64,000 nucleotides of DNA from Acidobacteriota bacterium (GTDB lineage: Bacteria; Acidobacteriota; Blastocatellia; Pyrinomonadales; Pyrinomonadaceae): assembly GCA_019242475.1 (NCBI GenBank), contig JAFAVK010000102.1:45005-109004 (forward strand), written 5' to 3'. Position numbers and translations under genes: made by a program. Positions 6,395 to 33,498 of the stretch are shown here, piece after piece. The notes under the pieces are model-generated. The model did not search any database. It saw only the letters and a list, made by a program, of their open reading frames with translations, and had not been told where the DNA came from. The first letter of the stretch is position 1, and each line of letters opens with the position of its first letter.

Positions 6395-6672
6395 GGGCTA
6401 TTTAATTCCTTCGATAAAGAGTGCTCCGGGCGCCGGCTATGAGTGGCGGCCGGGTGTTTATAACTTCTTCGACCGTTGCAAAACGCGCACGGGGGCGCGC
6501 ACAACGGCTCCCCGTCTGACGACGAGGGACTTGGCAATTCTCAGGCCGCTCCGGCGCCTCAAATTAGAGCTTTAAAGAGACGGGTGGCTGATTGGGGAGG
6601 GTCTTTGATGCGGGAAAGGCTTCCGCGGATTGCTGCGGACAACTGTCGGGTGAAATTTGCGCGCGGCGACTG

Positions 6673-7479
6673 TTACTGCTTCTTGGCCTCGGCCTTCGGC
6701 TCGTCCTTGCACTGCTCGACGGCGCCCTGCTCGGTGATGCCGAGCCGCTCGCGGACGAAGCGCTCCACGTCCTTCTCGATCAGCTCGCCGCCGACGACCC
6801 AGGCCTTCTCCGTCAAAAGCTCGCCCGACGCGTTGAGCTTCGCCGGCTCGAGGAAGACGTTGAAGGGCGAGCCCCAGTTGCGCGGGTCGCCGATGGACTT
6901 GCGGTAGGCGTAGTGCGTCGTCTTCTCCTTCTGGTCGCCGGCCTCGGACTCGACGACGACGGGGAAGGGCGCGCCGCCCTGCGACTCGAAATATTTGCGC
7001 GAGTCCTCGGCCGAGCCGTACTCGCTGACGCCGACGACCTCGAACCCCTGCGACTTGTACTTGTCATAGAGCCGCCAGACCGTGGGCGCCTCAGCCTTCC
7101 AGTTCCCGCACCACGGCGCGAAGTAGACGACCATCACGAGCTTCTTGCCCTTCGCCAACTCGCGCAGGGAGACGGGCGTGCCGTCCTTCAGCGTCTTGAA
7201 CGTCCAGTCCTTGTAATCGATCTTCTGCTCAAGCAGGGGCGCCCACTCGTGCCCCGCGTCACGCACCAACTGCGTCCCGCCCTGCGGCTGCGGCGCGGCC
7301 GGCGTCGGCGTCGGCTGCTGCGTCACGGCCGGCGTCTTGAAGACCGATGCGGCGCCGCCCGCCGGGTTCGGAGTCTGCGCGGGCTGCGGGCTGACTTGCG
7401 CGCCCGCCCCACGCGCGGACGCGAGCGCGGCGGCGGCGAAGACGAGTGCGGCGGCGGTGCGGCTGTGATGCTTGAACAT
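6673..7479 (-). CDS. Secreted thioredoxin-fold (TlpA/redoxin-like) protein with incomplete CxxC
   Basis: 268 aa; signal peptide; MVVYFAPWCGNWKAEAPTVWRLYDKY resembles the TlpA active-site region but has WCGNWK instead of WCxxC. Confidence 0.75.
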   Translation of the reverse strand: MFKHHSRTAAALVFAAAALASARGAGAQVSPQPAQTPNPAGGAASVFKTPAVTQQPTPTPAAPQPQGGTQLVRDAGHEWAPLLEQKIDYKDWTFKTLKDGTPVSLRELAKGKKLVMVVYFAPWCGNWKAEAPTVWRLYDKYKSQGFEVVGVSEYGSAEDSRKYFESQGGAPFPVVVESEAGDQKEKTTHYAYRKSIGDPRNWGSPFNVFLEPAKLNASGELLTEKAWVVGGELIEKDVERFVRERLGITEQGAVEQCKDEPKAEAKKQ

Positions 7480-7509
7480 GGTTCTTTCTCTCGTTCGTGC
7501 GGGCAGGGC

Positions 7510-10235: not shown

Positions 10236-11432
10236 TCAGCGCGGCGCGACCAACTGCGGCGGGGCGGAGACTCTTTGGAAGCGCGCGGGGGAGAAGGTTT
10301 CGAGGACGGCGGGGCTCAAACGGGTTGCCCCGCCCGTCAGGAGGTCTGCGACGATCTCGCCCGCGGCGGGCGCGAGCAGGATGCCGTTGCGGTAGAACCC
10401 CGTGGCGTAGAAGAGACCTTTCACGTCGGCCGACTCGCCCAGCACGGGCAGGCCGTCGGCCGCGCGCGGCCTCAAGCCCGCCCAGGAGTCTTCCACTTCG
10501 AGCGACGCGACGGCGGGCGCCAACTCCGCGACGCGCGCGGCAATCGAGCGCGCGCCCTCTTCGGTCACGCGGCATTCGTAAAGGCCGGGCTCGGTCGTCG
10601 AGCCGGCGAGCAGGCGCCCCCCGCGGCGCGGGACGACGTAGCCGCGCGGGCCGTAGACGACGTGTCGGAAGAGCGGCGGCTGACCGGCGGGCTGCCGGTA
10701 ACAGAGAATCTGACCGCGCACGGGCTCGACCCGCGGGTCGTCGTTCAAATAAGGATTGCCGTCGTCGGGGAATTTATGAAGCGATGAGTTCCACGCGCCC
10801 GCGGCGAACAGAACCGCGCCCGCCTCAAGCTCGCCTTCGGAAGTCACGACGCCCGCGGCGCGGCCGCTCCGGACGCGGACGCCGCGCGCCTCGACCCCGC
10901 GGTTGACGCGCACGCCCAGGCGCTCGGCCGCGGCGTCGAGTGCGACGAGCAGCCGGCGGCTTTCGACCTGCCAGTCGCGCGGGAACCTGAGCGCCATGCG
11001 CACGCCCGCCGAGACGTTCGGCTCTAACGCGCGCGCCTCGCGGGCCGTCAGCCGCTCGACTTCGAGCCCCGCGCGCTTCTGCCACGTGAAGCGGCGCTCG
11101 ACCTCCTCCTCCTCTTCCTCGTCGAGCGCGAGGTAGAGCGTGCCCGTGCTTTCAATCTCGAAAGGGAGGCCCGACTCCTCGCCCAAAGCGGCGGCGAAGT
11201 CGGGGTACATGTCGCGGCTCGCGCAGAGCAGTCGGAACAGCTCGTCCGGCGAGTCGGCCTCGGCCTGCGGCGCGAGCATCCCGGCGGCCGCGCGCGAGGC
11301 CGAGCCCGCGCGCCCGTCCTCTAAAACGGCGACGCTCAACCCCCGCCGCGCAAGCTCTCTGGCCGCCGCCAGCCCCGCGACGCCGCCGCCGACGACGGCC
11401 ACGTCCGCCCTCTCGCCCAAACTCTTTCGCAT
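10236..11432 (-). CDS. thiO: Glycine oxidase ThiO / FAD-dependent oxidoreductase
   Basis: 398 aa; DVAVVGGGVAGLAAARELARRG FAD motif; WAGLRPRAADGLPVLGES and FYATGFYRNGILLAPAAGEIVADLL typical of ThiO. Confidence 0.85.
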   Translation of the reverse strand: MRKSLGERADVAVVGGGVAGLAAARELARRGLSVAVLEDGRAGSASRAAAGMLAPQAEADSPDELFRLLCASRDMYPDFAAALGEESGLPFEIESTGTLYLALDEEEEEEVERRFTWQKRAGLEVERLTAREARALEPNVSAGVRMALRFPRDWQVESRRLLVALDAAAERLGVRVNRGVEARGVRVRSGRAAGVVTSEGELEAGAVLFAAGAWNSSLHKFPDDGNPYLNDDPRVEPVRGQILCYRQPAGQPPLFRHVVYGPRGYVVPRRGGRLLAGSTTEPGLYECRVTEEGARSIAARVAELAPAVASLEVEDSWAGLRPRAADGLPVLGESADVKGLFYATGFYRNGILLAPAAGEIVADLLTGGATRLSPAVLETFSPARFQRVSAPPQLVAPR

Positions 11433-11468
11433 TTTGAAGGACTGCTGGTATGATTCGGGAAAAATAAA

Positions 11469-11567
11469 CAGTTTTCAGTTCTCGGTTTTCAGGGGCCGGA
11501 GGGTCTCAGGAAAAGACTGCCTTGCCTCGGCTAAAAACTGAAAACCAAAGACTGAAAACTGAAAACC
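11469..11567. repeat. CTGAAAA heptad inverted repeat
   Basis: CAGTTTTCAGTTCTCGGTTTTCAG ... CTAAAAA|CTGAAAA|CCAAAGA|CTGAAAA|CTGAAAA|CCG. Confidence 0.8.
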
Positions 11568-11570
11568 GAC

Positions 11571-12572
11571 ATGCCACATACTATCACACTCATTCCGGGC
11601 GACGGCATCGGGCCGGAGGTCTCTTCGGCGGTCGTGCGCATCATCGAGGCGACGGGCGTTGACATCCGTTGGGAGACGCACTACGCGGGCGCGCAGGCGC
11701 TCGAAAAGTTCGGCTCGACGCTGCCCGAAGAGCTTTTGGAGTCGATCAAGCGCAACCGGGTCGCGCTCAAAGGCCCCATCACGACGCCGGTCGGGAAGGG
11801 CTTCACGTCGGTCAACGTCGGGCTGCGGAAGGCGCTCGACCTCTACGCCAACCTGCGCCCCGTCCGCGCGCTGCCCGGCGTGCCCGCGCGCTACCCCGAA
11901 CTCGACCTCGTCGTCGTGCGCGAGAACACCGAAGACCTCTACGCGGGGATCGAGCACGTCGTCGTCCCCGGCGTCGTCGAGTCGATTAAGGTCATCACCG
12001 AGAAGGCTTCGACGCGCATCGCCCGCTACGCCTTCGAGTTCGCGCGGCGCGAGGGCCGGAAGAAAGTGACGGCCGTCCACAAGGCCAACATCATGAAACT
12101 CTCCGACGGCCTCTTCCTCGAATGCTTCCGCAAGGTGGCGGCCGACTACCCCGAGATCGCGGCCGAGGACAAGATCGTGGACAACGCCTGCATGCAGCTC
12201 GTCATGCGCCCCGAGCAGTTCGACGTGATGCTTCTGGAGAACCTCTACGGCGACATCGTCTCCGACCTGTGCGCCGGGCTCATCGGCGGACTCGGCCTCG
12301 TCCCCGGCGCGAACATCGGCGAGCTGGGCGCGGTCTTCGAGGCCGTCCACGGCTCCGCCCCAGACATCGCCGGCCAGGGGATCGCCAACCCGACCGCGCT
12401 CCTCCAGTCCGGCATCCTCATGCTCCGCCACCTCGGCGAGCGCGACGCCGCCGAGCGCATCGAGAAGGCCATGCTCAAGGTCTACACCGACGGCCAGGTG
12501 CGCACGCGCGACGTGGGCGGCAACTCCCACACCGACGAGTTCGCGCAGGCCGTCATCCAGGGGATGGGGTGA
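11571..12572 (+). CDS. NAD-dependent isocitrate/isopropylmalate dehydrogenase family protein
   Basis: 333 aa; ITLIPGDGIGPEV, VVRENTEDLYAGIEH, VFEAVHGSAPDIAGQGIANPTA. Confidence 0.9.
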   Translation: MPHTITLIPGDGIGPEVSSAVVRIIEATGVDIRWETHYAGAQALEKFGSTLPEELLESIKRNRVALKGPITTPVGKGFTSVNVGLRKALDLYANLRPVRALPGVPARYPELDLVVVRENTEDLYAGIEHVVVPGVVESIKVITEKASTRIARYAFEFARREGRKKVTAVHKANIMKLSDGLFLECFRKVAADYPEIAAEDKIVDNACMQLVMRPEQFDVMLLENLYGDIVSDLCAGLIGGLGLVPGANIGELGAVFEAVHGSAPDIAGQGIANPTALLQSGILMLRHLGERDAAERIEKAMLKVYTDGQVRTRDVGGNSHTDEFAQAVIQGMG

Positions 12573-12606
12573 GACGGGAAAGAGAGGGCGCGGCCTTAGC
12601 GCGCGG

Positions 12607-13227
12607 TCAGGCGTCGAAGGCGACGCCGTCGTAGATGTCTCGGAGCTTGAGCGCGCAGCCGATTGATTCAAGCTCAAGCGAGGCGTCGAGGCCGGTCACG
12701 TCGCGCCGCTGCCACGAGTCGCCTTCGAGCCGCGTGTAGTGCGTTACGCGCGGCCCGTCCTGCGAGACGAGCAGGTAGTCTCGCAGGCTCGGGACGGCCT
12801 GGTAGGCGATGAACTTCGGCCCCTCGTCCAGCGCGGCCGTGCTCGGCGACATTACCTCGACAACCACGACAGGGTTGACGAGCGCGTCGTGCCCTTTTTT
12901 GTTCTTGAACTCCGGCTCGCCACACACGACGCTCGCGTCCGGATACCGGTAAGGCGGGAGCGTCGGCGTCCAGATGGGCGCGTCGCCGGTGAAGGGCTTA
13001 CAACGCCCGCCGCGTAAGGCCACGGCGAGCGAGGCGAGGACGTTGCTGGAAATTAAATGGTGTGAGCGGCTGCCGCCGCTCATGCAGACGATCTCGCCGT
13101 CCCAGTACTCGAAGCGCGCGTCGCTCGCGTCTTCGAGCGCGAAGTATTCTTCGAGTGAGTAGTAGTGTTGCGGCACGTCTTTCGGGTTGGACGCCATCTC
13201 AAGTCTCCTCCTGTTGCTGGATAACAT
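12607..13227 (-). CDS. Uma2 family endonuclease-like protein (DUF820)
   Basis: YSLEEYFALEDASDARFEYWDGEIVCMSGGSRSHHLISSNV...YPDASVVCGEPEF...VVVEVMSPSTAALDEGPKF. The internal start MASNPKDVP is more likely than the first M. Confidence 0.85.
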   Translation of the reverse strand: MLSSNRRRLEMASNPKDVPQHYYSLEEYFALEDASDARFEYWDGEIVCMSGGSRSHHLISSNVLASLAVALRGGRCKPFTGDAPIWTPTLPPYRYPDASVVCGEPEFKNKKGHDALVNPVVVVEVMSPSTAALDEGPKFIAYQAVPSLRDYLLVSQDGPRVTHYTRLEGDSWQRRDVTGLDASLELESIGCALKLRDIYDGVAFDA

Positions 13228-13583
13228 CTCCGAGACTTGGCGGCGCCGCGGGCGTTCTGGATTTTATCCCATCCCGTCGCGCGGCGGAACGGCGACGACG
13301 TCCGCCCGCGCCGTTGGCGCTCGGAAAAATCTTGACAGCGGGGGCGCGCCGGACATAGAGTTTCGGCGCGCCTTTCCATTTACAGTTCTCTATAGAAGAA
13401 AAGTAGGGACGCGGAGTCCGCGCGGCCGTCTCCGGACGGCCTTGCGCTCCGATGATAAGAGAATCTCCCCGTGCCGGCGGCCGGCAACTTCGTGGCCGCC
13501 CCCTCGACCCGCGCGGCGCACGCGGCAAACGTGCTACGCGAAGGTCGTTTCCACCTCTGCCACGAGGCCCAAGGAGTTCCACC

Positions 13584-16376
13584 ATGTTTCGTTCACCCGC
13601 GCGCAAGCGCCGCCTGAGAAGATCGCTGAGCTTAGCCCTGACCCTCATCTTTATGGTCGCCTTCATACCGCCGCCGCCCGCCGCGCGGTACTTCGCGGGC
13701 GCGGCCCGCGCGCAGGAGCCGAACGTCCCGTCCATCGCGCCGGGCTCGGCCTACCGGCAGACGAATCTCATCTCGGACGTGCCGGGCCTCTCGCCCGTGC
13801 TCGACCCGCTGCTCGTCAACCCGTGGGGCCTCACGGTCAGGGGCACCAGCCCCTTCTGGGCCGTCAACAACGGGACGAGCACGACGCAGCTCATCCGCGG
13901 CGACGTGTCGGGCGCGCCCGTCGTGCTCAACCCGAACCCGCAGACGATTAACATCCCGGGCGGCCTCCCGACGGGCACCGTGGGGAACTCGACCACCGAC
14001 TTCCAGATCACCCCGCCCGGCGGCGGCACGCCCGCCGCGGCCAACTTCATCTTCGACTCGATCACCGGCAACATCACCGCGTGGAACGGGGCGAGCGGCG
14101 CCGCCGCGCAGAACGTCGTCTCGATGCCGGGCCACGTCTGGACGGGCCTCGCCATCGGCTCGAACTCCGGCGGCAACCGGCTCTACGCCGCCGACTTCGC
14201 CAACAACCACATCGACGTGTTCACCGGCACGTTCACGGCGACGACCGTCACGGGCGGCTTCATCGACGCGACCATCCCGGCCGGCTTCGCGCCCTTCAAC
14301 ATCCAGAACCTCGGCGGCTCGCTCTACGTCGCCTACGCGAAGGTCGGCACGGGCGGGCACGACCAGGCGGGCGTCGGCAACGGCTACGTCCGCAAGTTCA
14401 ACACCGACGGCGTGCGCGACCTGACGTTCGCCATCAACAACGGCGCGCTCAACTCGCCGTGGGGCCTGACCATCGCGCCCGCCAGCTTCGGCGTCTACGG
14501 CAACGCGCTCCTCGTCGGCAACTTCGGCGAGGGCAACGGCTCGATCCACGCCTACAACCCGACGACGGGCGCCCCCTCGGCCACCGACAACGCGCTCAAG
14601 GACGAGTCGAACCACGACATCGTGATCGACGAGCTGTGGGCGCTCGCGTTCGGCAACGGCGGCAACGGCGGCGACGTGAACACGCTCTACTTCACCTCCG
14701 GCCTCGGCGAGGAGGAGCACGGCCTCTTCGGCAAGCTCAACCCGACGACCTCGCAGGCCACCTCGCTCATCCAGTTCGCCACCGACAACTTCGCCGTGGA
14801 CGAGGCGGGCGGCCACGTCGATTTCACCGTCATCCGCACCGGCGACACGTCGGGCGCGGCCACCGTCAACTACAACACCTTCGACGAGTCGTCGGCCGGC
14901 CACGCCTCGCAGAAGAGTGACTACGAGATTTCGCTCGGCACGCTCAGCTTCGCCGCGGGCGAGACCTCGAAGACCTTCCGCATCCTGATCGTGGACGACA
15001 AGTTCGTCGAGGGCGACGAGACCATCGACCTCATGCTCTCGAACCCGACGGGCACAGGCGTCGGGCTCGGCAACCCGAACAAGGCCGAGGTGACCATCCT
15101 CGACAACGACTCGACGCCGCCCGCGACCAACCCCATCGACGACCCGTCCTTCTTCGTCCGCCAGCACTACCTCGACTTCCTGAACCGCGAGCCGGACGCC
15201 GCGGGGCAGGCGTTCTGGACGAATGAGATTACGTCGTGCGCCGGCAACGCCGCCTGCATCGAGAACAAGCGCGTCAACGTCTCGGCCGCCTTCTTCCTGT
15301 CGATTGAGTTCCAGCGCACAGGGTATCTGGCCTACCTGACGCACCGCACGGCCTTCGGCGCGAACGCTTCGGGGTCGCCCGCGCCCGTCCTCTACGGCAA
15401 CTTCATGCGCGACGTGCAGACGCTCCAGCGCGGCTTCGTCTTCGGCGCGCCCGGCGCCGACGCCGTGCTCGAAGCGAACAAGGTCGCCTACTTCAACGAG
15501 TTCGTCACGCGCCCCGAGTTCGTCGCGAAGTACCCCTCGACGCTGACGAACGACCAGTACGTCGATAACCTGCTCGCCTCGGCCGGGCTCTCGCCGTCGC
15601 AGGTGCGGCTCTTCGTCGTGAGCCTGACGAACTCGCAGGAGGTGCCGCCGACGGTGCCGACGACGACGACGGGCGCGGCGCGGCCCGCCTCTTCCGGCAC
15701 GGCGCGCTTCCAGTTCAACGACGCGCAGACGGCGATGACCTTCACCGCCACGATCAGCAACATCGACGTGGGCGGGCAGACCGCCGACACGAACGACGAC
15801 CTCGTCGCGGCGCACATCCACGCCGGGGCCTCGGTCGCGCCGGGCGTCAACGGCCCCGTCGTCTGGGGCTTCTTCGGCGCGCCGTTCAACGACAACAACC
15901 CGAACGACCAGTCCTTCTTCCCGACGCCGGGCGGCGTCGGCGGCACGTTCAGCGGCAAGTGGGACGCGCCCGAGGGCAACGGGACGACGCTCGCCGCGCA
16001 GCTCGACAACCTGCGCAACGGGCGCGCCTACATCAACTTCCACACGAAACAGTTCGGGGGCGGCGAGATCCGCGGCAACTTCCCCGCGGCCGACGCCTTC
16101 CGCAACTCGCTCGTGGCGGGCCTGAACGGCTCGACCATGACGCGCGCGCAGGTGCTCCGCGCCATCGCCGAGTCCGAGGAGTTGAACTCGCGCGAGTTCA
16201 ACTCGGCCTTCGTCACGATGGAGTACTTCGGCTACCTGCGCCGCGACCCCGACACCGCCGGCTTCAACTTCTGGCTCAACAAGCTGAACGCCTTCAACGG
16301 CAACTTCCAGAACGCCGAGATGGTCAAAGCCTTCATCTCGTCGTCCGAGTACCGCCAGCGCTTCGGCCCGAGTTAG
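13584..16376 (+). CDS. Secreted TIGR03118-like protein with Calx-beta domain and a DUF4214 module interrupted by a CHRD domain
   Basis: AAGGAG ribosome site 10 bp before ATG 13584. YRQTNLISDVPGLSPVLDPLLVNPWGL (TIGR03118-like); VDEAGGHVDFTVIRTGDTSGAATVNYNT (Calx-beta); FFVRQHYLDFLNREPDAAGQAFW (DUF4214); VVSLTNSQEVPP...VAAHIHAGASVAPGVNGPVVW..GGEIRGNF (CHRD). Confidence 0.85.
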   Translation: MFRSPARKRRLRRSLSLALTLIFMVAFIPPPPAARYFAGAARAQEPNVPSIAPGSAYRQTNLISDVPGLSPVLDPLLVNPWGLTVRGTSPFWAVNNGTSTTQLIRGDVSGAPVVLNPNPQTINIPGGLPTGTVGNSTTDFQITPPGGGTPAAANFIFDSITGNITAWNGASGAAAQNVVSMPGHVWTGLAIGSNSGGNRLYAADFANNHIDVFTGTFTATTVTGGFIDATIPAGFAPFNIQNLGGSLYVAYAKVGTGGHDQAGVGNGYVRKFNTDGVRDLTFAINNGALNSPWGLTIAPASFGVYGNALLVGNFGEGNGSIHAYNPTTGAPSATDNALKDESNHDIVIDELWALAFGNGGNGGDVNTLYFTSGLGEEEHGLFGKLNPTTSQATSLIQFATDNFAVDEAGGHVDFTVIRTGDTSGAATVNYNTFDESSAGHASQKSDYEISLGTLSFAAGETSKTFRILIVDDKFVEGDETIDLMLSNPTGTGVGLGNPNKAEVTILDNDSTPPATNPIDDPSFFVRQHYLDFLNREPDAAGQAFWTNEITSCAGNAACIENKRVNVSAAFFLSIEFQRTGYLAYLTHRTAFGANASGSPAPVLYGNFMRDVQTLQRGFVFGAPGADAVLEANKVAYFNEFVTRPEFVAKYPSTLTNDQYVDNLLASAGLSPSQVRLFVVSLTNSQEVPPTVPTTTTGAARPASSGTARFQFNDAQTAMTFTATISNIDVGGQTADTNDDLVAAHIHAGASVAPGVNGPVVWGFFGAPFNDNNPNDQSFFPTPGGVGGTFSGKWDAPEGNGTTLAAQLDNLRNGRAYINFHTKQFGGGEIRGNFPAADAFRNSLVAGLNGSTMTRAQVLRAIAESEELNSREFNSAFVTMEYFGYLRRDPDTAGFNFWLNKLNAFNGNFQNAEMVKAFISSSEYRQRFGPS

Positions 16377-16380
16377 AAAG

Positions 16381-16533
16381 CAGTAGGCAGTAGGCAGTTA
16401 GCCGTCTGCGAAAGTAGTCAAGCGAATCGGGGGCGGCGAGTCTTAACAAGCTCGCCGCCCCCGATTCGTTGAGTCGTCTTCGTTAAGACGCTTCCTGCCT
16501 TCAACTGCCTACTGCCATCTGCCTACTGCCTAC
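16381..16533. repeat. CAGTAGG heptad inverted repeat around the terminator hairpin
   Basis: CAGTAGG|CAGTAGG|CAGTTAG and reverse-complement array AACTGCCTACTGCCATCTGCCTACTGCCTACT. Confidence 0.85.
16423..16468. terminator. Perfect 18-bp stem hairpin between convergent genes
   Basis: CGAATCGGGGGCGGCGAG-tcttaacaag-CTCGCCGCCCCCGATTCG, nested inside 7-bp-period inverted repeats (16381-16400 / 16501-16533). Confidence 0.75.
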
Positions 16534-17837
16534 TATTCGACGGGCTCGCCGCCCGCCGGGTCGATGTCGCCGGCGACGACGACGGTGAGGCGCTCGGGGC
16601 GGAAGTATTTGCGGATTGCCGCGTTGGCCTCCTCGACCGTGACGCGGCCGACCAGCTCCGGGTAGCGCTCGACGTAGTCGAGCCCCAGCCGGTAGAACTC
16701 CGCGTTCCACAGCGCCGCCGCCAGCCCCGCGTTCGTCGAGAGCGAGACCTTGAACGACCCGACGGCCGAAGACTTCTCGTCCTCCAACTCCTCCGGGCGT
16801 ATGCCGTGTTCGACAAACTCTTGCAGCACGCCGAGCGCGGACTCGATGGCGCGCTCGACGTTGCCGGGGTTGACCGAGACGGCGATGTACCACGGCCCGG
16901 CCGCCAAACTGGGCGCGCGGAAGCGCGACGCGATGCCGTAGGTCAGCCCCTCCGCGTCGCGCACGCGCAGGCCGAGGCGCGAGGAGAGCGTGGACTCGCC
17001 GAGCGCGCGGTTGGCGAGCATCGCCGCGTAGTAGTCCGAAGCGTCGCGCCTGAGCGCCGCCGCCGTCCCCAGCATCACGTCCACGTTCGCCTTGTCGCGC
17101 ACGAGCACCAACTCGCGCCGCGCCGAGGCGGGCGGCTCCGGGTCTGTCACTTCGACCTCGGCGTCCCCGGGGCCGCCGAAGCCCTCGAACGCCTCGCGCA
17201 GCACGCGCGCCGCCGCGCCCGACTCGACGCCGCCCGCGGCCGAGAGGATCAGCGTGCGCCCGCCGTAGAATTTCTCGTAGAAGCCGCGCACGTCCTCGAC
17301 CGTGACGGACGAAATGCTCTCGATGAGGCGCTCGCCCGCGTGCGTGTAGAAGGGATGCCGCTCGTCAAAGAGCGTCTGCGTCAGGCGCTCGTAGGCGCGC
17401 CACCCCGTGTCCGACTGCTTCTCGCGGACGGCCGCGATGGTCTGCTGCTTGAGCTTCTCCAGCTCTTCGGCGGGGAAGGAGGGCTCGCGCAGCATCTCGG
17501 CGAGCGTCGCGGCGAGGGCGGGGAAGTCTCCCGCGAGCGACCGCGCGCTGATCTGCACGGCGAAGACGTCCGCGTCGAAGTCGATGTCCGCGCCGACCGT
17601 TTCGAGCGCGCCCGCGAGTTCGAGCTTGCCCCTCCTGCGGGTGCCGCGCTTCAGCATCTCGGCCGTGAGGCGCGCGAGCCCCGGCTTCTCCTTCGGCTCG
17701 AAGTGCGAGCCGGCGCGCAGGCTCCCGCGCAGCGCGACCGTCGGCGAGGCCGGATTCTCGACGAGCAGCACGACCGCGCCCGTCTCCAACTCCTCGCGCA
17801 CGACACGTGAAGAGAGTCCCGTCCCGACCTCTCTCAT
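16533..17837 (-). CDS. M16 family peptidase, probably non-catalytic partner
   Basis: 434 aa; M16 fold features (GSHFEPKEKPGLARLTAEMLKRGT) but no HxxEH; partner gene immediately upstream with 4-bp overlap. Confidence 0.85.
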   Translation of the reverse strand: MREVGTGLSSRVVREELETGAVVLLVENPASPTVALRGSLRAGSHFEPKEKPGLARLTAEMLKRGTRRRGKLELAGALETVGADIDFDADVFAVQISARSLAGDFPALAATLAEMLREPSFPAEELEKLKQQTIAAVREKQSDTGWRAYERLTQTLFDERHPFYTHAGERLIESISSVTVEDVRGFYEKFYGGRTLILSAAGGVESGAAARVLREAFEGFGGPGDAEVEVTDPEPPASARRELVLVRDKANVDVMLGTAAALRRDASDYYAAMLANRALGESTLSSRLGLRVRDAEGLTYGIASRFRAPSLAAGPWYIAVSVNPGNVERAIESALGVLQEFVEHGIRPEELEDEKSSAVGSFKVSLSTNAGLAAALWNAEFYRLGLDYVERYPELVGRVTVEEANAAIRKYFRPERLTVVVAGDIDPAGGEPVE

Positions 17838-19282
17838 CGAACCCCTCCCCGCCCCGCGTTCGAACTTCCGTTGCCGTTCGCGCCGCCGCCGTTCTTCGGG
17901 ATGAAGTGGCCGACCGTGCGCGCCTCCTCCCCGAAGTAAGCGGCCGCCACCCGCTTCACGTCCTCGGCCGTGACGCGCGCGACGTTGCGCGGGTAGTCCT
18001 TGTAGAAGCGCCAGTCGGCGACCGCCTCGGCCTCCGACATCTGCATCGCCACGTTGTGCGTGCCGTCGCGCTCGTACGCGACGCGCGCCCCGATCTGCCG
18101 CTTCGCCTTCTCGACCTCCGCTTCGCCGAGGTCTTCGGCCGCGCGCTCAAGCTCGCGGCGGATGGTCTCTTCAACCCTCGCCGCCTCGACGCCGGGCGCG
18201 GCCGTCGCGTAGACGTTGAAGAGGCCGGGGTCGCGGAACTGGTCAACGCGCGCGTCCACCGAGACGGCCAGCTCCGCCTCGACGAGCGCCTGATACAGGC
18301 GGCTCGTCACGCCGTTCGACAGCGCGCAGGCCAGCACGGCGAGTGGGTAGATGTCGTTCACCTCGGGGGGCTGTGCGGCGCGCGCGGCCAGTTCGGCGTT
18401 CGACAGAACCTTCTCCTGACCCAACGCGGCCGGCGTGCGGAAGGCCACCTGCACGAGCGGCAGCTCGCCCGCGCGCCGCACGACCAGGCGCCGCTCGCCC
18501 TCCTGCCGCGGCTCGTCCGTGTAGACCTCCGGGATGGGCTCGCCCGAGGCGGGGAAGGCGCCGAAGTATTGCGCGACGAGCGCGAGCGCGCGCGACTCCT
18601 CGAAGTCGCCGACGACGATTGCCGTCGCGTTGTTCGGGTGGTAGAAGGTGTCGTAGAACTCTTTGAGCCGCGCGGTCGGCACGTTCTCCACGTCGGCGCG
18701 CCAGCCGATGGTCGGGTGGTGGTAAGGGTGCTCGCGGAAGGCCGCGGCGTAGACGGCCTCGTCGAGCACAAGCATCGGCTCGTTCTGCCCGCGCTCCAAC
18801 TCGTTGCGCACGACCGTCATCTCCGAGCGCCGGTCTTCGTCGGCGATGAAGGAGTTGCGCATGCGGTCTGCTTCGAGGTGGACGGCCAACTCCAAAGCGT
18901 CCGACGGCACGGTCTCGAAGTAGTTGGTGCGGTCGTACCAGGTGGTCGCGTTGAAGTCCGCGCCGACCCTTTGGAGCGTGGCGGCGACCTGCGTGCCCCG
19001 GGCCTTGTTGAAGGTCGGCGTGCCCTTAAAGAGCATGTGCTCAAGCAGGTGCGTCGCGCCCGTGTGGCCGACGGCCTCGTTGCGCGACCCGACGCGGTAG
19101 ACGACCAGGAACGTCGCCACCGGCGCGACGCGGTTCCCCGCCAGCAGCAGCTTCAGGCCGTTCGCGAGCCTGAACTCGCGCACCCCCTCCCCTTCCGCCA
19201 CGAACTCGACCCCGTCGGGCGGGGCCACATTCCGCTCACTCAAAATCTTTCTCCTTAAACGCCCGTCGTTGGTTCGATTCAT
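17834..19282 (-). CDS. M16 family zinc peptidase, catalytic partner
   Basis: VGSRNEAVGHTGATHLLEHMLFKGT contains HLLEH (HxxEH). Start MNRTNDG chosen over upstream M at 19402. Confidence 0.85.
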   Translation of the reverse strand: MNRTNDGRLRRKILSERNVAPPDGVEFVAEGEGVREFRLANGLKLLLAGNRVAPVATFLVVYRVGSRNEAVGHTGATHLLEHMLFKGTPTFNKARGTQVAATLQRVGADFNATTWYDRTNYFETVPSDALELAVHLEADRMRNSFIADEDRRSEMTVVRNELERGQNEPMLVLDEAVYAAAFREHPYHHPTIGWRADVENVPTARLKEFYDTFYHPNNATAIVVGDFEESRALALVAQYFGAFPASGEPIPEVYTDEPRQEGERRLVVRRAGELPLVQVAFRTPAALGQEKVLSNAELAARAAQPPEVNDIYPLAVLACALSNGVTSRLYQALVEAELAVSVDARVDQFRDPGLFNVYATAAPGVEAARVEETIRRELERAAEDLGEAEVEKAKRQIGARVAYERDGTHNVAMQMSEAEAVADWRFYKDYPRNVARVTAEDVKRVAAAYFGEEARTVGHFIPKNGGGANGNGSSNAGRGGVR

Positions 19283-25822: not shown

Positions 25823-27379
25823 TCACCCTTTTTTGCCGGCGTGTTGGGCCTGGCGGTGCGGGCGGCGGATGAGGCTGCGGCGGCGCGGGATGACGGGGCG
25901 GCGCTCGCCGAGCAGCCCCTTGTGGCGGTTGTTGAGGAGCGCGACGAAGGTCTGGTGGTGCCTGAAGCCGAGCAGCTTCGCCGCGCGCGAGACCACGCCG
26001 TCGGCGTCGCGCAGCGCGCGCGAGATCAGCTCCGCCTCGTAACGCAGCACCTCCGCCTTCAGCGAGAACCCCTCCCACCTCTCCTCGGACGGGGCGGCCT
26101 CGACCCCTTCGCCGTCACCGCGCGAAGAGATGAACGACTCCAACGCGCGGCGGGCGCAGGCGGTCAGGCGCGAGAGCGTGTCGAGGTCGCGCGTGCCCGC
26201 GAGCGGGCCGTGCGCGCGCTCGAACGCGTCGCACAGCTCGGCGTGGTCGAGGTCTGCGCCCAACTCCTCGGTGAGCGTGAGCGCGGCCAGACCCGCGCCC
26301 GTCCGGTCGCCCGCGACCTCCGCGACTTCGACGGCACGCGCGAGGCTTTGGTGGGCCTCCGGGTGCCGGCCGCCGCGCGCCTGCGCGACGCCGAGCGTCG
26401 TCAGCGCCTCGGCCAGGAGCGCCTGGCGGTCGCAGTCTTCGAAGACGCGCACGGCGGAGAGCGCGACGCGCTCGGCCTCCTCGTGCCGGCCCTCGGCGAC
26501 GAGCACGCGCGCCAGCGTCTCGTCGCACTGCGCGACGATGACCGCGTCCTTCAGGGAGGCGTGGAGCTTGCGCGCCCGCGCGAGGTGCTCGCGCGCCTCC
26601 TCGTGGCGGCCGATGCGGTTGAAGAGGATGGCGAGGTTGTTCTCGTTGTTAGCGAGGTAGCGCGTGTGGCCGGCCTGCTCAAGGTGGAAGCTGGCGGCCG
26701 CGTGTTCGACGAGCGCGCGGTCGAGCATCTCGGCGTCGCCCGCGTCGGCCAGCGCGACGAAGGCGTTGGCGCGCTCCGAATGGAAGTTGCCCTGGATGAC
26801 GTCGCTCCCGCTCGCCTCGACGTGCGGGGCGGCCTCGGCGAGCACCTCGACGGCCGCGCGGTTGCACCCGGCCGACAGCTCGACGATGGCGAGTCGCGTG
26901 AGCGCGAGCGCCCTCTGCTCGGCGTCCTCGCGCGCGAGCCCTTCGAGCGCCGCGCGCAGGACGACGCGCGCCTCCTCGAACGCGCCCTCGCGCCAGTAGC
27001 AGACGCCGAGGTCGGTGCGCGCCTCGGCGACCTTGCGTGCGTCGCCGAGCCGCTCGAAGAGGCCGGCGCCTTCGCTCAGGAGATTCTTGGCGGCCTCCTG
27101 CGCGCCCTCGATGCGGCGCGCGCCGCCGAGCGCGCTCGTCAGGCGCCCGGCCTGCAACAGCACCTCGGCCGCCGCGCGCGCGCCTAATCCGTCGGCCGCG
27201 GGGCGCCCACAAGTGCCGCGCCAGAGTCCTTCGAGCGCCTCGACGGCGCCTTCATAATCGCCGGCTTTTAAGAATGAGTTGGAAAGGGTGCAACGTCGGA
27301 GCGCGTCCTCGTCGCGGGAAGCGGGTGCGCCGGCCGCGGCCGGTGCGTGCGTGACACGGGGGCTGTTCGAGAAGTCCAT
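25823..27379 (-). CDS. TPR-repeat protein with C-terminal Fis-like helix-turn-helix
   Basis: Repeated TPR-like helices (ARTDLGVCYWREGAFEEARVVLRAAL...); C-term YEAELISRALRDADGVVSRAAKLLGFRHHQTFVALLNNRHK. Confidence 0.75.
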   Translation of the reverse strand: MDFSNSPRVTHAPAAAGAPASRDEDALRRCTLSNSFLKAGDYEGAVEALEGLWRGTCGRPAADGLGARAAAEVLLQAGRLTSALGGARRIEGAQEAAKNLLSEGAGLFERLGDARKVAEARTDLGVCYWREGAFEEARVVLRAALEGLAREDAEQRALALTRLAIVELSAGCNRAAVEVLAEAAPHVEASGSDVIQGNFHSERANAFVALADAGDAEMLDRALVEHAAASFHLEQAGHTRYLANNENNLAILFNRIGRHEEAREHLARARKLHASLKDAVIVAQCDETLARVLVAEGRHEEAERVALSAVRVFEDCDRQALLAEALTTLGVAQARGGRHPEAHQSLARAVEVAEVAGDRTGAGLAALTLTEELGADLDHAELCDAFERAHGPLAGTRDLDTLSRLTACARRALESFISSRGDGEGVEAAPSEERWEGFSLKAEVLRYEAELISRALRDADGVVSRAAKLLGFRHHQTFVALLNNRHKGLLGERRPVIPRRRSLIRRPHRQAQHAGKKG

Positions 27380-27803
27380 GTGAGGACTATCCCTCCTCTC
27401 TTTTGATTCCGGTGTTCTCGCGCCGCGCGTCAGCAAATGAGTAGTTTGGGGCAAGTGCGGCGCGCGAGTCCGGTTAAAGGGTTAAGGTCGATGCCGCGCC
27501 GCTGCGCGACACTGGCACGGCGACGACGCCGCGCCTCGGGGGTCGTCGGGCGCTTGCGCGTCCGAACCCTTCGCCGTCGTTGATACTGCGGCCGGCCGGG
27601 CCGGCATTCTCGGGAGAGAGCTGGAGACTGTCTGAGACGTTAAAGACCCCGTCACGTGCGGCGCGCCTGGGCAGACGCTACGGCCGACCGGGGCCGGTCG
27701 TGCTGTACGGTGTGCAAGCCCTTGAAGCACCTTACTTGCGGCCGAGGCGCCACACGGGTTATGGCAGCTTAAACCCGACCCGTGGGGAAAGCAAGATGTA
27801 AAA

Positions 27804-27944
27804 AAGTAGGCAGGCGGCAGAGGCAGCAGTCGGCAGGTGGTAGACGTTGGTCAACAGGCGGGTTAACGGTTGCTACCGAAATTTTTGGACTGACCTTGCA
27901 ACGTTCCAAACGCGGGGCGGCTGCCGACTGCCTGCTGCCTACTT
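27804..27944. repeat. AGTAGGC heptad-like inverted repeat abutting the AAA+ gene stop codon
   Basis: AAGTAGGCAGGCGGCAGAGGCAGCAGTCGGCAG ... CTGCCGACTGCCTGCTGCCTACTT. Confidence 0.8.
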
Positions 27945-30900
27945 CATCCCATGAGGTCGAAGTCGCCGTCGAGGACGCGCTCCAGCCGGCCGGTACGCCA
28001 GCCGCGCGCGGAGTCGCGGACGAGCGGCGAGGGCTCTTCGCGGTAGCGGCGGACGACCTGCGGCTGCGGCGCCTGCGCTTCGGTCGAGAGAGCGCGCTCG
28101 GCCTGCTCGCGCAACGCTTCGCGTCCGCCGCGCCCGGGCGGCTCTTCGGGCTGGCCGACGACGCGGACGGAGGCCGCCACGCGGCGGAAGGATGACTTCT
28201 CGTCCTGCGGCGTTTCGAGGACGTGCAGGCCCGCCTCGTGCCGGAGAATCGTGTAGGCCGCGTAGCCGGAGACGGCGAAGAGCGCGCGGTACTCCTCCGC
28301 GCCCGCGCCGTTCGAGCGCGCGCCGTCGTGCTCTTCCAACAGCTCGATTCTCATCCGGCGGCGCTCGGCCCAGCGGCGGTACATGCGCGCGAGCGTGCGC
28401 GCGAAGTCGTCGCTGCGGGCGCGGTCGGCCCCGGGCTCGCGCCCCGCCGTGACGAGCAGGAAGGCGTCGCGCGCCTCCCCTTCGGCCATGCCGCGGCAGG
28501 CCGAGTCGAGCAGGTAGAGCTGTTCGGCGAGGCGCGCGACGAGGCCGGAAGGGAGCCGCTTGCGGTCGCCGCGCAGGCGCGCGAGGAGAGAGCCGGCGGT
28601 GTCGAGTCCGGCCTCGATGCGATCCATGTACTCGACGGCGCCGAGCACCGAGAAGCGCTCGTTCGAAGACCAGAAGTCGGCCGACTGCATCTCGCCGAGC
28701 GCTCTCTCTTTACGCTCGCGCCAGGCATCGTCCTCGACGCGGGACGCGACCTCGTCGTACTGCTCTTGCAGGAAGCGCAGCTCCTCGGGCGTCCCCTTCG
28801 GGTCGAGCGCGATTGATTCGAGGCGCAGCTCGCGCGCGGCCTCTTCGTCGAAGGGGAGTTCGTCAAACTCTTCGGCCGCCGCCTTTCCTTCGGCGGGCGC
28901 GTCGGGGTCTACGAACTGCACGTCGAGCGAGCCGCCGTCCGCGGAGGAGCGGACGAAGAGGAACTGGTCGCCTTCGGGGAACTGGTGGTTGACGATGGTC
29001 AGCGCGAGCGGCGAGAGCAGGTAGCGCTCGACGGCGCGCTTCAAAGGGCGCGCGCCGAGGTCGGCCGTGAAGCCTTTCTCTAAAAGAAACTCGACGGCCG
29101 ACTCATCCCACTCGACCGCCCACTGGCGCGTGCGCAGGCCGCGCCGCGTGAGCACGTCGTTCAGCTCCTTGCGCAAAAGGTCGCGCATCACGCCGCGCCC
29201 GAGCGGGCGGAAGACGACGACGCGGTCGATGCGGTTGACGAACTCGCGCCGGAAGGCGCGGCCCACGGCGCGCTCGACCGAGCCCGCGGCGAACTGCGCC
29301 TGCTCCTGCGAGAAGCCGACACTCGCGCCGTGCGGGAGCGTCGCGCCGAGGTTCGAGGTCATGATGATGACCGAGTGGCGGAAGTCGGCCGTGTTGCCGC
29401 GGCGGTCGGTCAGGCGGCCGTCGTCGAAGACTTGCAGGAACAAGTCCCAGACGGACGGGTGCGCCTTCTCGAACTCGTCGAGGAGGACGACGGAGAAGGG
29501 TTGCTTGCGGATCTGGTTGACGAGGGCCGCGCTCTCGCTCGTCTCGTCCGTCTCGCCGAGGATGCGCCCCTGCGACTCCCAGGTCTGTAGCTCGCTCATG
29601 TCGAGGCGGATCATCCGCTCGGGCGAGCCGAAGAGGAAGTCGGCGAGCGTCTTGGCGATCTCGGTCTTGCCCGTGCCCGTCGGGCCGACGAAGAGGAAGA
29701 CGCCCTGAGGGCGCGTCGGGTCTGTGAGGCCGGCCTTAATCATCGCGACGCGCTCGACCAGACAGTCCACGGCCTCGGGCTGGCCGAGCACGCGCTTTTC
29801 AAAGAAGGCGCGCAGCTCCGAGAGGTCGAGCCCCTCGCGCTCGTCGAGCATTTGCACGGGCAGGCCCGTCAACTGCGAGAGCGTGACGAGCAGGTCGTCG
29901 AGTTTGACTTCATCCACGGCCCGACCTTCGGCGAGCAGGCGGCGGTCGGTCGCTTCGAGCAGCAGCAGGAGGTTGCCGGGGGCGGCCTTGTCGTCGAGGT
30001 ACTGCTTGGCGAGCTGCAAAGCCTCGCGCAGCGTCCGCCCCGACGCGCGCGGCGCGACGACTTGAGCCTCACTCTCAACACTCTTCGTTCCACGTTCGGC
30101 CCAGCGTCGTCCGAGTTCCAGCGTCTCGTCGTCCGAGAGCGGCACGAGGCGGCACGTCTGCATCGCGGTGCGCAGCCGCGGGCGCAGGCGCACGAGCTGT
30201 TCGTAGGCGCGCGCCGGCACCTCGCCGACGAGGCGGACGGCGCCGCTCTCGATGTGCGGCAGCAGAAGGTCGAGCACGCCCGTCGGGCTGTAGCGGTGGC
30301 GGCCGGCCCACAGCGCCTCGTGGAAGTTCGGCATGACCCAGAGGACGCGCTTACCCGCGAGCTGTTGGACGATAACGCGCACGCGCTCCTCGATCTGGCC
30401 GATGTAGATTTGGCCGGCCAAAACCTCCGCGGGCGCGGCCTCGAAGACGAGCCAGTCGTCCCCGCGCAGGCGCGCGGCGAGCGCGCGCACGAGCGCCGTC
30501 TTCCCCGCGCCCGACTCGCCGACCAGCAGCACCGACCGCGCGGGCTCGCGTTTGACCGCCGCCTCCAACTCCGCGACGTGCGCGGCCACCGAGTCGAGCA
30601 TGAAGACCTCGCGCCCGTCCTCCTCCCACACGCGCCCGATGGACTTAACAAACTCGGCCGTCTGGCGCGAGCCTCGCCACCGCGCAAGCTCCCCGCGCGC
30701 CGTTACCGGGAGCTGCACGTCTATCGCGTCGAGCGTGGCGCAGACCTCGTTCCAATGCTCCGGGCCGAGCTTGAGCGCGTCGGCCTCGTCGGTGAGGTCG
30801 CGCGGGCTGATGGTGTCGCCGGCCGCGACTCGCTCGGCGATGAACTCGCGCAGCGCCTGCAAAGGCATCGGCTCGCGCCACGTCGAGTTGAGCCGGACGA

Positions 30901-31558
30901 GCAGGGGGGCGAGCACGTCGCGGCCTCCCGCGTGCGCGGCCAGCGCGCGCAGCGCGTAGAAGCGCGGCCAGTAGAAGTAGGCGTTGATGTCGCGCAGGAT
31001 GACTTCGACGACCTCCTCGTCGTCGCCCTCGCGCCGCGCCAGCGCTTCGAGCGAGACGCAGGCGACGAGCGCGTTGCCCTCGGCCGCCCGCGCGAGCAGG
31101 CTGCGGGTCGTCGTCTCCGGGCCGAGCGAGAGTTCGACGCCGCGCCGGAACCCCTCGTGCCCGAGCAGCTCGCGCGGGTGCGTCGTGTCGTTGAAGAAGT
31201 CGTCCATCGCGCGCGCGACCGCGTACACGTCGGAAGGCTCCTCGCTCTTCTCCGCCGCGTCCGTCTCGGCCGGCGCAGAGTCTGCGCCCGTGTTCTCGGA
31301 GGTTGACTGCGCCGCACTCTCGTTGACGACGGCCTCGCTCTTTCGACTCGACTCCTCCTGCGCCGCCGCCAGCGCGTCGAGCCGCGTTTCGTTGCGCCCG
31401 ATTCTCTGCCGCTCCGACTCCAAGCCTTCGCGCAGGGACGACAGCTCACGCCCGAGCCACGCACGCAGCTCGCCCGACTCGCGCGCGCGCACGAGCGCCG
31501 CCCACAACGCGGCGCCGCCCAGAAGGATTGAGGCGATGATAAGGACGGTGGTCAGCAA
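27944..31558 (-). CDS. Membrane-anchored Clp-type (ClpA/B-like) AAA+ ATPase with C-terminal release-factor-2-like (PCRF) domain
   Basis: 1204 aa. N-term TM (MLTTVLIIASILLGGAALWAALV); NBD1 VLLVGESGAGKTALVRAL; NBD2 GVFLFVGPTGTGKTEIAKTLADFLFG..SVVLLDEFEKAHPSVWDLFLQVFDDGRLTDRRG; C-term FLLVTAGREPGADRARSDDFARTLARMYRRWAERRRMRIELLEEHDG...YAAYTILRHEAGLHVLETP...RTGRLERVLDGDFDLMG. Confidence 0.85.
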   Translation of the reverse strand: MLTTVLIIASILLGGAALWAALVRARESGELRAWLGRELSSLREGLESERQRIGRNETRLDALAAAQEESSRKSEAVVNESAAQSTSENTGADSAPAETDAAEKSEEPSDVYAVARAMDDFFNDTTHPRELLGHEGFRRGVELSLGPETTTRSLLARAAEGNALVACVSLEALARREGDDEEVVEVILRDINAYFYWPRFYALRALAAHAGGRDVLAPLLVRLNSTWREPMPLQALREFIAERVAAGDTISPRDLTDEADALKLGPEHWNEVCATLDAIDVQLPVTARGELARWRGSRQTAEFVKSIGRVWEEDGREVFMLDSVAAHVAELEAAVKREPARSVLLVGESGAGKTALVRALAARLRGDDWLVFEAAPAEVLAGQIYIGQIEERVRVIVQQLAGKRVLWVMPNFHEALWAGRHRYSPTGVLDLLLPHIESGAVRLVGEVPARAYEQLVRLRPRLRTAMQTCRLVPLSDDETLELGRRWAERGTKSVESEAQVVAPRASGRTLREALQLAKQYLDDKAAPGNLLLLLEATDRRLLAEGRAVDEVKLDDLLVTLSQLTGLPVQMLDEREGLDLSELRAFFEKRVLGQPEAVDCLVERVAMIKAGLTDPTRPQGVFLFVGPTGTGKTEIAKTLADFLFGSPERMIRLDMSELQTWESQGRILGETDETSESAALVNQIRKQPFSVVLLDEFEKAHPSVWDLFLQVFDDGRLTDRRGNTADFRHSVIIMTSNLGATLPHGASVGFSQEQAQFAAGSVERAVGRAFRREFVNRIDRVVVFRPLGRGVMRDLLRKELNDVLTRRGLRTRQWAVEWDESAVEFLLEKGFTADLGARPLKRAVERYLLSPLALTIVNHQFPEGDQFLFVRSSADGGSLDVQFVDPDAPAEGKAAAEEFDELPFDEEAARELRLESIALDPKGTPEELRFLQEQYDEVASRVEDDAWRERKERALGEMQSADFWSSNERFSVLGAVEYMDRIEAGLDTAGSLLARLRGDRKRLPSGLVARLAEQLYLLDSACRGMAEGEARDAFLLVTAGREPGADRARSDDFARTLARMYRRWAERRRMRIELLEEHDGARSNGAGAEEYRALFAVSGYAAYTILRHEAGLHVLETPQDEKSSFRRVAASVRVVGQPEEPPGRGGREALREQAERALSTEAQAPQPQVVRRYREEPSPLVRDSARGWRTGRLERVLDGDFDLMG

Positions 31559-31579: not shown

Positions 31580-32818
31580 CTAAGCTTTTGCCTCGCGCCC
31601 GGCGGCCTCGTTGACCGCGCGGGCGGCGCGGTTGCCGGATTCGAGCGCGCCGTTCATCCAGGAGGCGTAGACGGAGGCGTGCTCGCCCGCGAAGTGTATG
31701 CGCCCCTCGGGCGCGTTGACGGCGACGAGCTGCTGCCCCGAAGGGTGCGTCCAGGCGCAGCCCGCCCAAGGGTCTTCGCCCCAGCACTTCACCGCGCCGC
31801 GCTCGTATGAGGCGCGGACGCCGGGCACCGCCTGCTCCGTGAGCGCGAGCGCCGCGTCCATGCGTCCCGCCTCGTCCTTCTTCGCCCACTCGGTCGCGGT
31901 TCGGTGGCGCACGTAAGCCTGTAGCACGCCGCGGCGGCCGGGCTGTCCGAAGGTCGAGGGCCAGAACTCGGCGGGCAAGTCCATCGCCGCGAACCCGTTC
32001 AGGCGCGAACGCTCCCAGAAGCGCTCGCGCGTCTGCATGAAGGCGCGCGCGGCCAGCTCGTAGGTCAGCTCGTCCCTCACCTTGAGCTTCTGCTCGGAGA
32101 GGCGCGGCGAGAACTCCACGCGGCCGAGCACGGCGAAAGGGATCGCGCAGACGACGTAGTCCGCCGGCAAAGTCTCGTTCGAGCCCGCGCGTTTGAAGGT
32201 GACGCGCGCGCCCGTGCTCTCCTGCTCCACCTTCGAGACGACCGCGCCGTAGACGACTTTGCCCGCGAGCCTCTCGGCGAAGGCGTGCGGCAGGAGGTCG
32301 TTGCCGCCCTCGATCTTGTGCCAGCGCCCGGTCTCGTCCAGCTCGATGCCGACGTAGTCCTCGACCGCCTCGGCGAACTGCTCCCACCCGACCTCCTCGC
32401 GGCGCCCGCGCCTGACCTTCGCGAACACGCCCGCGTCGGGGTAGAAGGGCAGGAGCTTCAAATTGAACTCTTTGACGTAGCGCAGCGTCCACTCGTGGTT
32501 GTCGGGGATGCGCGCCGCGCCCGCGTCGCCGTACAGCCCCTCGTCGAAAGCGCGTAAAGTCAGCACGCGCCCGCCCGGCCGCTCCTGCGCTTCGAGCACC
32601 TTCACGTCGTGCCCGGCCCTCGTCAACTCGTACCCCGCCGAAAGCCCCGCCAGCCCGCCGCCCAGGATCACAACTTTGCGCGGCGCACTCGTCTTGCCGA
32701 GCCCCGCCTGCGCGCCGAGAACTACCGCGCCCGCCCGCGCCGGCAAGACGATCGCCGCCGCGGCCGCCAGCGCGCTCTGTTTGAGGAAATCTCTGCGGGT
32801 GAATTTATTTCGCTTCAT
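31580..32818 (-). CDS. Flavin monoamine oxidase-family protein, Tat-exported
   Basis: MKRNKFTRRDFLKQSALAAAAAIVLPARAG Tat-like signal; VVILGGGLAGLSAGYELTRAGHDVKVLEAQERPGGRVLT; IHFAGEHASVYASWMNGALESGNRAA. Confidence 0.9.
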   Translation of the reverse strand: MKRNKFTRRDFLKQSALAAAAAIVLPARAGAVVLGAQAGLGKTSAPRKVVILGGGLAGLSAGYELTRAGHDVKVLEAQERPGGRVLTLRAFDEGLYGDAGAARIPDNHEWTLRYVKEFNLKLLPFYPDAGVFAKVRRGRREEVGWEQFAEAVEDYVGIELDETGRWHKIEGGNDLLPHAFAERLAGKVVYGAVVSKVEQESTGARVTFKRAGSNETLPADYVVCAIPFAVLGRVEFSPRLSEQKLKVRDELTYELAARAFMQTRERFWERSRLNGFAAMDLPAEFWPSTFGQPGRRGVLQAYVRHRTATEWAKKDEAGRMDAALALTEQAVPGVRASYERGAVKCWGEDPWAGCAWTHPSGQQLVAVNAPEGRIHFAGEHASVYASWMNGALESGNRAARAVNEAAGREAKA

Positions 32819-32985
32819 GGTCAAGGCGCGCGGAGGGGTTGGAAGGTTTCGGGAGACATGACCGAGAGCGTTAATAGAGAACGCCCCGCTTCGCCGAACG
32901 CATAATAAACTTATCCGGGCGGTGCGAACAGGAATTTTCGGGAGTCTTAAGAGCGGGGCGGTGGCGGGCCGATGAAGGGCGGCGC

Positions 32986-33023
32986 AAAAAGAAACCGGGC
33001 TGCTACCCGAAGGCAGCAGCCCG
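32986..33023 (-). terminator. Rho-independent terminator of the ncRNA candidate
   Basis: Minus strand: CGGGCTGCT-GCCTTCGGGT-AGCAGCCCG-GTTTCTTTTT. Confidence 0.8.
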
Positions 33024-33498
33024 ATCCCGGTATCCCTTTGAACCGCCGAAGCGATTCTGGGGGACGGCAACCCTTGCTTGTACACGCGACAGGCTGCCTG
33101 ATTTATATTCCGAAGCGTGTGCCTGCGGCGGCTCACCCCCGGTCGGCACGGGCTAACTTCCGTCAACCTCTCAGGCCCGAGGGCCTGGTGCCTCTTGGTT
33201 TTTGTTCTGGTGGCTTTACCTCCACCTCCAGTCTACGTTCTGGACAACGAGGCTCAACCGAAGTTGAGCGGCGTTCGCTACTCCGTCGGTTAATTACTCC
33301 GTCGAAGCGCCGTCGCGTTTTTATCCGCGCGGCTCGGGAAGCACCCGTCGGTATCCTCCCTGCGCAGGCCTTTCGGCCTCGGCCGGGGCGTCAGTGGCAG
33401 CGACGTTTGCCGCTTGTCGCTGTCCTCAGACTGAAACGTTTCCGCCTCAATCTGCCGATCCCCTCGCCGGCCGCGGCTGCCGTAACAACCGCGACGGG
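32986..33498 (-). ncRNA. Structured RNA candidate of unidentified class (about 510 nt)
   Basis: Minus-strand promoter TTGACA-17bp-TATAGT (33533-33505), many stems with GAAA/UUCG/CUCG loops (e.g. CAGAUUGAGGCG-GAAA-CGUUUCAGUCUG, GCUCAAC-UUCG-GUUGAGC, CAGGCC-CUCG-GGCCUG), ends in intrinsic terminator. No good ORF on the minus strand. Confidence 0.65.

Follow-up and report, generated by a model that had tools for sequence, protein, structure and literature searches.

FtsH is a membrane-anchored AAA+ machine that faces the cytoplasm and combines a single AAA module with a metalloprotease domain of its own. ClpX and ClpA contact ClpP through an IGF loop (PMC9035409). Release factors carry the GGQ domain as an insertion within their codon-recognition domain (PMC6514570). 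In the eukaryotic ribosome quality control pathway the release-factor-type domain of Vms1/ANKZF1 works together with the AAA+ unfoldase Cdc48 (PMC6514570, PMC5989216), and in plant chloroplasts PrfB3, a relative of release factor 2 (RF2) without SPF and GGQ, has left termination and stabilises petB RNA, binding at its 3' end (PMC5897788). Here we describe a gene in a 64,000-nucleotide stretch (the window) of contig JAFAVK010000102.1 (positions 45,005 to 109,004, forward strand; assembly GCA_019242475.1) from an Acidobacteriota bacterium of the family Pyrinomonadaceae. At its safest, our comparative sequence analysis indicates that the gene product belongs to an undescribed Hsp100 subfamily which is predicted to be membrane-anchored, bears a ClpP-docking signature and ends in an RF2-derived module that would neither decode nor hydrolyse. 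To our knowledge, no translation release factor permanently built into a Clp motor has been known before. An initial annotation of the locus had likewise claimed that the architecture is without characterised precedent, and no description of it was found in a literature search with little coverage of subscription journals.

Results

A Clp-type ATPase with an RF2-derived C-terminus

The gene is one open reading frame (ORF) on the minus strand (27944-31558; 1204 amino acids, aa) with a TTG start at 31558 and a stop at 27944-27946; just 5' of the start lies the stretch GGGAAGAG. Pfam assigns AAA_2 (residues 616-779, 1.6e-44), ClpB_D2-small (residues 786-865, 1.2e-13) and PCRF (residues 1026-1114, E=2.8e-11; 44 bits against a curated cut-off of 24), and the domain order of Table 1 recurs in the complete family members. 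The initial annotation had claimed a fusion of Clp and RF2 parts and had proposed a Pfam scan for PCRF, a structure prediction of the C-terminal region and a survey for the same architecture as checks; the significant PCRF match, the RF1/RF2 fold matches of the predicted structure and 88 loci in GTDB species genomes, together with phmmer and profile-profile comparisons, confirm the fusion.

Homology to RF2 extends over the last ~290 residues and holds at the level of sequence, profile and fold. The C-terminal 309 aa match E. coli RF2 structure chains over domains 1-2 (phmmer, 3e-13), and a profile built from 14 members improves the RF2 match to 1e-15. Among the NCBIfam models prfB (RF2) matches at 8e-14, as against 8e-6 to 1e-6 for RF1. 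A global profile-profile comparison with 15 Acidobacteriota RF2s over domains 1, 2 and 4 reached 99.4% (E=3.8e-20), the alignment taking in the C-terminal strand (VRRYRE.PSPLVRD...VLDGDFD versus IRSY..HPYRLVKD...VLDGDID in RF2). AlphaFold models the C-terminal part with a mean pLDDT of 86.8 and a pTM of 0.81, and the best 50 matches listed in a PDB fold search are all RF1 or RF2 (top E=8e-14). Whole-structure TM-scores against RF1/RF2 are just 0.3-0.5, a result we ascribe to the missing GGQ domain and to domain 1 being oriented differently. PCRF was matched by 14/14 members tested; the genome of the window encodes two further PCRF proteins, both matching that domain over its full length.

The module thus resembles RF2 in domain 1, the PCRF domain 2 and domain 4, in both fold and order, and differs from it by its fusion to a Clp ATPase, by the excised GGQ domain and by the loss of the motifs GGxE, SPF and HTS. 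That GGQ is lost, as had been claimed, is supported twice: the GGQ-domain family finds no match in any of the 14 members scanned, and GLH and the VRRYR strand lie 49-63 aa apart in 51 of 52 members measurable by pattern, compared with 126 aa in RF2. The domain has been cleanly excised, leaving the module ~70 aa shorter than RF2; in 5 members the letters GGQ occur by chance elsewhere in the protein. A GRGGRE sequence previously read as a remnant of the GGQ site is no such thing, as it sits in a variable linker and the entire inserted domain is absent. The RF2 decoding elements GGT(D/E) (GGxE), HRLVRxSPF and (R/H)xTSF (HTS), conserved in the 15 RF2s compared, are absent from the family, in line with the earlier claim for SPF, and the HRxxR arginines are likewise gone. 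What has been kept are the core positions (FW, MY..WA..R, G..A..L..E.G.H, Y..P..LV.D and VL.G..D) and the domain-4 C-terminus. The domain keeps its fold; judged by the established function of RF2 and the motifs lost, it should be unable to read stop codons or to hydrolyse peptidyl-tRNA. In the C-terminal strand, where conservation is inflated because the search for the 88 loci relied on two C-terminal peptide patterns, the arginines R1170 (79/79), R1188 (78/79), R1171 (72/79) and R1181 (70/79) stand out; members sharing this C-terminal motif and architecture also turn up in pattern-free searches.

The motor and its ClpP-docking signature

In the second nucleotide-binding domain (NBD2) Walker A, Walker B (DEFEK), the Arg finger and sensor 2 are near-invariant among members, and the site of the GYVG pore loop is occupied by a variable acidic loop. 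NBD1 lacks the Walker-B acids and has kept Walker A. The catalytic set of NBD2 is complete; as the GYVG pore loop is absent, the unfoldase activity named in the initial annotation is itself an inference.

The stretch from sensor 1 to the Arg finger contains a loop that is variable but for a [LIV]GF tripeptide, whose GF is almost invariant. In the genome of the window the same loop reads MGF in ClpC and IGF in ClpA and is deleted in ClpB (Clp names assigned from sequence features). The label "ClpB-type" for NBD2 needs correction, as the domain carries a ClpP loop that ClpB lacks; a protease-coupled machine is therefore likelier than a free-standing unfoldase. A ClpP gene is present in 20/20 family-positive genomes checked.

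Set against ClpA and ClpC, the family shares two AAA+ modules, an aromatic pore loop in NBD1 and, in NBD2, an intact set of Walker A/B, Arg finger and sensor 2 together with an [LIVM]GF loop placed after sensor 1 and before the Arg finger. It differs in that a transmembrane segment plus a HEAT-like domain replaces Clp_N, an RF2 module has been added at the C-terminus, and the NBD1 Walker-B acid and the NBD2 GYVG loop have been lost; the window protein scores 291 bits with the NCBIfam model of ClpA, far short of the cut-off of 993. Among the NCBIfam models that of ClpB scores best on the AAA part, and NBD2 is 40% identical to the ClpB of the same genome. Here too the score (306 bits) contrasts with a cut-off of 1232, and the ClpP loop, the fused RF2 module and the lack of a GYVG pore loop set the family apart.

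The same genome (G000, contig C15; L133, L131) encodes, near ClpB, an extra Clp-type ATPase of ~800 aa that has an FGF loop and lacks a GYVG pore loop, and at L135 another AAA protein of ~435 aa with an IGF loop. Both are possibly further partners of ClpP.

Membrane anchor and N-terminal domain

The N-terminal membrane segment noted in the initial annotation recurs as a strongly hydrophobic stretch (hydropathy >1.6) in 51 of the 62 members with an intact N-terminus, typically followed by Arg/Lys, and the body of the protein is predicted to be cytoplasmic. The likeness to FtsH lies in this membrane-anchored AAA+ arrangement and the difference in the protease, since ClpP would be a separate protein. 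The N-terminal domain is labelled HEAT-like because of a profile match to alphaRep proteins and an all-helical topology, a fold search against the PDB having given no confident match; Clp_N was not among the best Pfam matches.

Distribution and phylogeny

Of 396 genomes sampled from the Acidobacteriota, the phylum of the window, 11 contain orthologues. The scan of GTDB species genomes placed its 88 loci, 80 of which were kept, in more than a dozen phyla, including Acidobacteriota, Pseudomonadota, Planctomycetota, Calditrichota, Verrucomicrobiota, Krumholzibacteriota, Myxococcota and Gemmatimonadota; most members come from metagenome-assembled genomes, and bins may carry a wrong taxon label. 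Isolates with the gene include Tahibacter aquaticus, Rudaea sp. and Inquilinus limosus, and a pattern-free profile search of 118 genomes from the Tahibacter family found it in 8. A single ORF spans the Clp and RF parts in 78/80 kept loci; a simple ORF caller missed the remaining two, and contig ends truncate several ORFs. An apparent partial loss of the PCRF core in one locus (L025) was rejected, the gap being masked sequence (N) and not a deletion.

Matches to the unit of N-terminal domain and NBD1 at E<=2e-64 are restricted to genomes encoding the RF module, the next match being a generic Clp NBD1 at 8e-22, and the Clp half without the RF half occurs in no Acidobacteriota genome sampled. This confinement, together with the wide gap in scores, argues that, in the sampled phylum, the module is an integral part. 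In a quick NBD2 tree with long branches among the outgroup paralogues, a long branch with 97% support parts the family from ClpA, ClpB and ClpC of the same genome; within the family the tree mostly follows phyla.

Table 1. Features of the gene and its product in the window (NBD, nucleotide-binding domain).
Feature	Residues	Coordinates	Strand	Basis
Whole gene; order TM (transmembrane) anchor, HEAT-like domain, NBD1, NBD2, RF2-derived module	1204 aa	27944..31558	(-)	single ORF
N-terminal transmembrane segment, then Arg residues; rest predicted cytoplasmic	~4-26	31481..31549	(-)	hydropathy
All-helical HEAT-like N-terminal domain, replacing the Clp N-domain	~110-310	30629..31231	(-)	profile match to HEAT-like alphaRep proteins 3e-8; AlphaFold pLDDT 89.9
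NBD1 Walker A GESGAGKT; Walker-B acid replaced (WVMPNF)	347-354	30497..30520	(-)	K353 68/71; Pro at 410 in 63/71
NBD1 pore loop 1, AGQIYIGQIEERV	381-393	30380..30418	(-)	aromatic Y/F/W at 385 in 69/70; G387 70/70
NBD2 AAA_2 domain; Walker A/B and Arg finger intact, GYVG pore loop missing	616-779	29222..29713	(-)	Pfam; motif counts; alignment with ClpA/B/C of the same genome
Putative ClpP-docking tripeptide, SVGF	746-749	29312..29323	(-)	G748 76/77; F749 77/77; 747 = L/I/V 65/77
ClpB_D2-small C-terminal subdomain, sensor-2 GARPL	786-865	28964..29203	(-)	Pfam 1.2e-13; GARPL 78/78
RF2 domain-1-like helical part, FW..xxERF motif	~915-1025	28484..28816	(-)	phmmer/HMM alignment to RF2 from domain 1 on; F962 78/79; W963 79/79
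PCRF core = RF2 domain 2; GGxE, SPF, HTS lost	~1026-1135	28154..28483	(-)	Pfam 2.8e-11; comparison with 15 RF2s
Short variable linker at the site of the excised GGQ domain 3	~1136-1166	28061..28153	(-)	spacing 49-63 aa vs 126 aa in RF2
Domain-4 C-terminus, near-invariant, Arg-rich, VRRYRExPSPLVRDxxRGWRTGRLDxVLxGDFDL	1168-1204	27947..28057	(-)	aligns with RF2 IRSYxLxPYxLVKDxRT...VLDGDxDxFI; column counts

Discussion

The explanation we favour, and to which we give an even chance, is a two-ring Hsp100/Clp subfamily on the cytoplasmic membrane that would feed ClpP and use the RF2-derived module as a built-in targeting domain. NBD2 would hydrolyse ATP and dock ClpP via the GF loops, and the passive NBD1 ring would grip the polypeptide chain; with a single gripping ring such a machine may be suited to weakly folded clients. 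The RF2 scaffold would have been kept as a recruitment domain for substrate, its recruitment surface probably being the near-invariant Arg-rich C-terminal strand, as this is the most uniform part of the module. Translation-derived clients at the membrane would be the most natural ligand candidates (a ribosome, tRNA/RNA or RF partner), and binding of the module to the ribosome is possible.

Several points weigh against this explanation. The loss of both the NBD2 GYVG loop and the NBD1 Walker B questions whether protein is threaded at all, and a C-terminal module of 300 aa near the ClpP-facing ring might hinder docking. Some Xanthomonadales members carry PGF, and one member PAF, in place of [LIV]GF. 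Finding ClpP is a weak test, given that the protease is nearly universal. No neighbouring gene is conserved beyond close relatives, so that gene context supports no particular pathway, and the pattern-based collection of loci noted above biases part of the conservation at the C-terminus.

The probabilities of the favoured explanation and of its rivals overlap, since what the RF2 module binds is a question distinct from that of a ClpP-coupled motor. A more specific version, in which a ClpP-coupled membrane quality-control machine would use a decommissioned RF2 to dock its unfoldase to stalled or membrane-bound ribosomes, as a single-polypeptide functional counterpart of Vms1-Cdc48, we regard as unlikely. 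The adaptor role for the ribosome or a stalled chain put forward in the initial annotation survives in weakened form and is somewhat doubtful: the dead RF2 module would dock on stalled and perhaps membrane-bound ribosomes, in or near the A site or at the stalk base, with the Clp ring pulling on the nascent chain or on ribosomal proteins, much like a fused bacterial analogue of Vms1-Cdc48. The RF2 ancestry with domains 1, 2 and 4 kept, the scores in favour of RF2 over RF1, the near-invariant Arg-rich C-terminus and Vms1/Cdc48 as a precedent for pairing an RF-type protein with an AAA+ unfoldase (PMC6514570, PMC5989216) are consistent with such a role. However, Vms1 has an unrelated aeRF-1 fold, is eukaryotic and is a protein separate from Cdc48, to which it is joined via a VIM motif, so that the comparison is an analogy only. 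Moreover, the decoding-centre motifs GGxE, SPF, HTS and HRxxR are all lost, for which reason RF-like docking in the A site cannot be assumed; domain 3, which faces the peptidyl transferase centre, is lost as well, and no translation or rescue gene is conserved beside the family loci.

The absence of translation genes nearby is in keeping with a pure exaptation, which we consider possible without expecting it. The RF2 fold would then serve a membrane-anchored Hsp100 only as a structural or oligomerisation element, or as a protein-binding domain unrelated to translation. The known functional motifs of RF2 are all lost and the core positions kept, and PrfB3 is a precedent for leaving termination, although that plant protein is not described as an ATPase fusion (PMC5897788). 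The C-terminal strand, however, is more uniform than a mere scaffold needs, and the Clp half never occurs without the module in the Acidobacteriota genomes sampled, which suggests a specific function of the module. A ClpV-like ATPase that would remodel the sheath of a type VI secretion system (T6SS) or a similar structure is highly improbable and largely refuted by the genome survey: in one locus (L043, genome G227) the gene stands directly before tssK-tssL-tssM-tssA, but tssK occurs in just 3/15 family-positive genomes and is adjacent in that one only, and the TssH/ClpV profile scores 222 bits against a cut-off of 885.

The family would add to the Hsp100 proteins an apparently so far undescribed subfamily that occurs in many phyla, including the culturable Tahibacter, Rudaea and Inquilinus. 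If the module does touch ribosomes, it would be a direct physical link from stalled translation at the membrane to ClpP proteolysis; if it no longer does, the family would show strikingly how a translation factor can become a degradation adaptor. In addition, a passive gripping ring combined with a hydrolysing ring without the usual paddle tests current ideas on threading by Clp rings.

Gene neighbourhood

Upstream of the gene, a flavin amine oxidase gene (31580-33166, minus strand) runs in the same direction and ends 21 bp away; this pairing is kept in one close relative (L021) and not in others. A TPR-repeat protein whose C-terminus resembles a Fis-type helix-turn-helix (25823-27454, minus strand) adjoins the gene only in close relatives (L050, L055, L125). 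The T6SS cluster of L043, tssK-tssL-tssM-(TagF-like)-tssA, lies directly downstream of the family gene at 10659-19001. In L036 (G199) a bacterial Pnkp RNA end-healing/ligase gene (3235-6300) stands directly upstream and overlaps the family ORF; a link to RNA repair was rejected, as Pnkp is absent from the genome of the window and from its nearest family-positive relatives. A role in anti-phage defence was also rejected, the PADLOC matches being confined to the AAA regions. In L035 (G287) three consecutive proteins of ~900 aa with protein-kinase-like N-termini (188-8317) adjoin the family gene, and kinase-like genes are also found close to it in several other loci.

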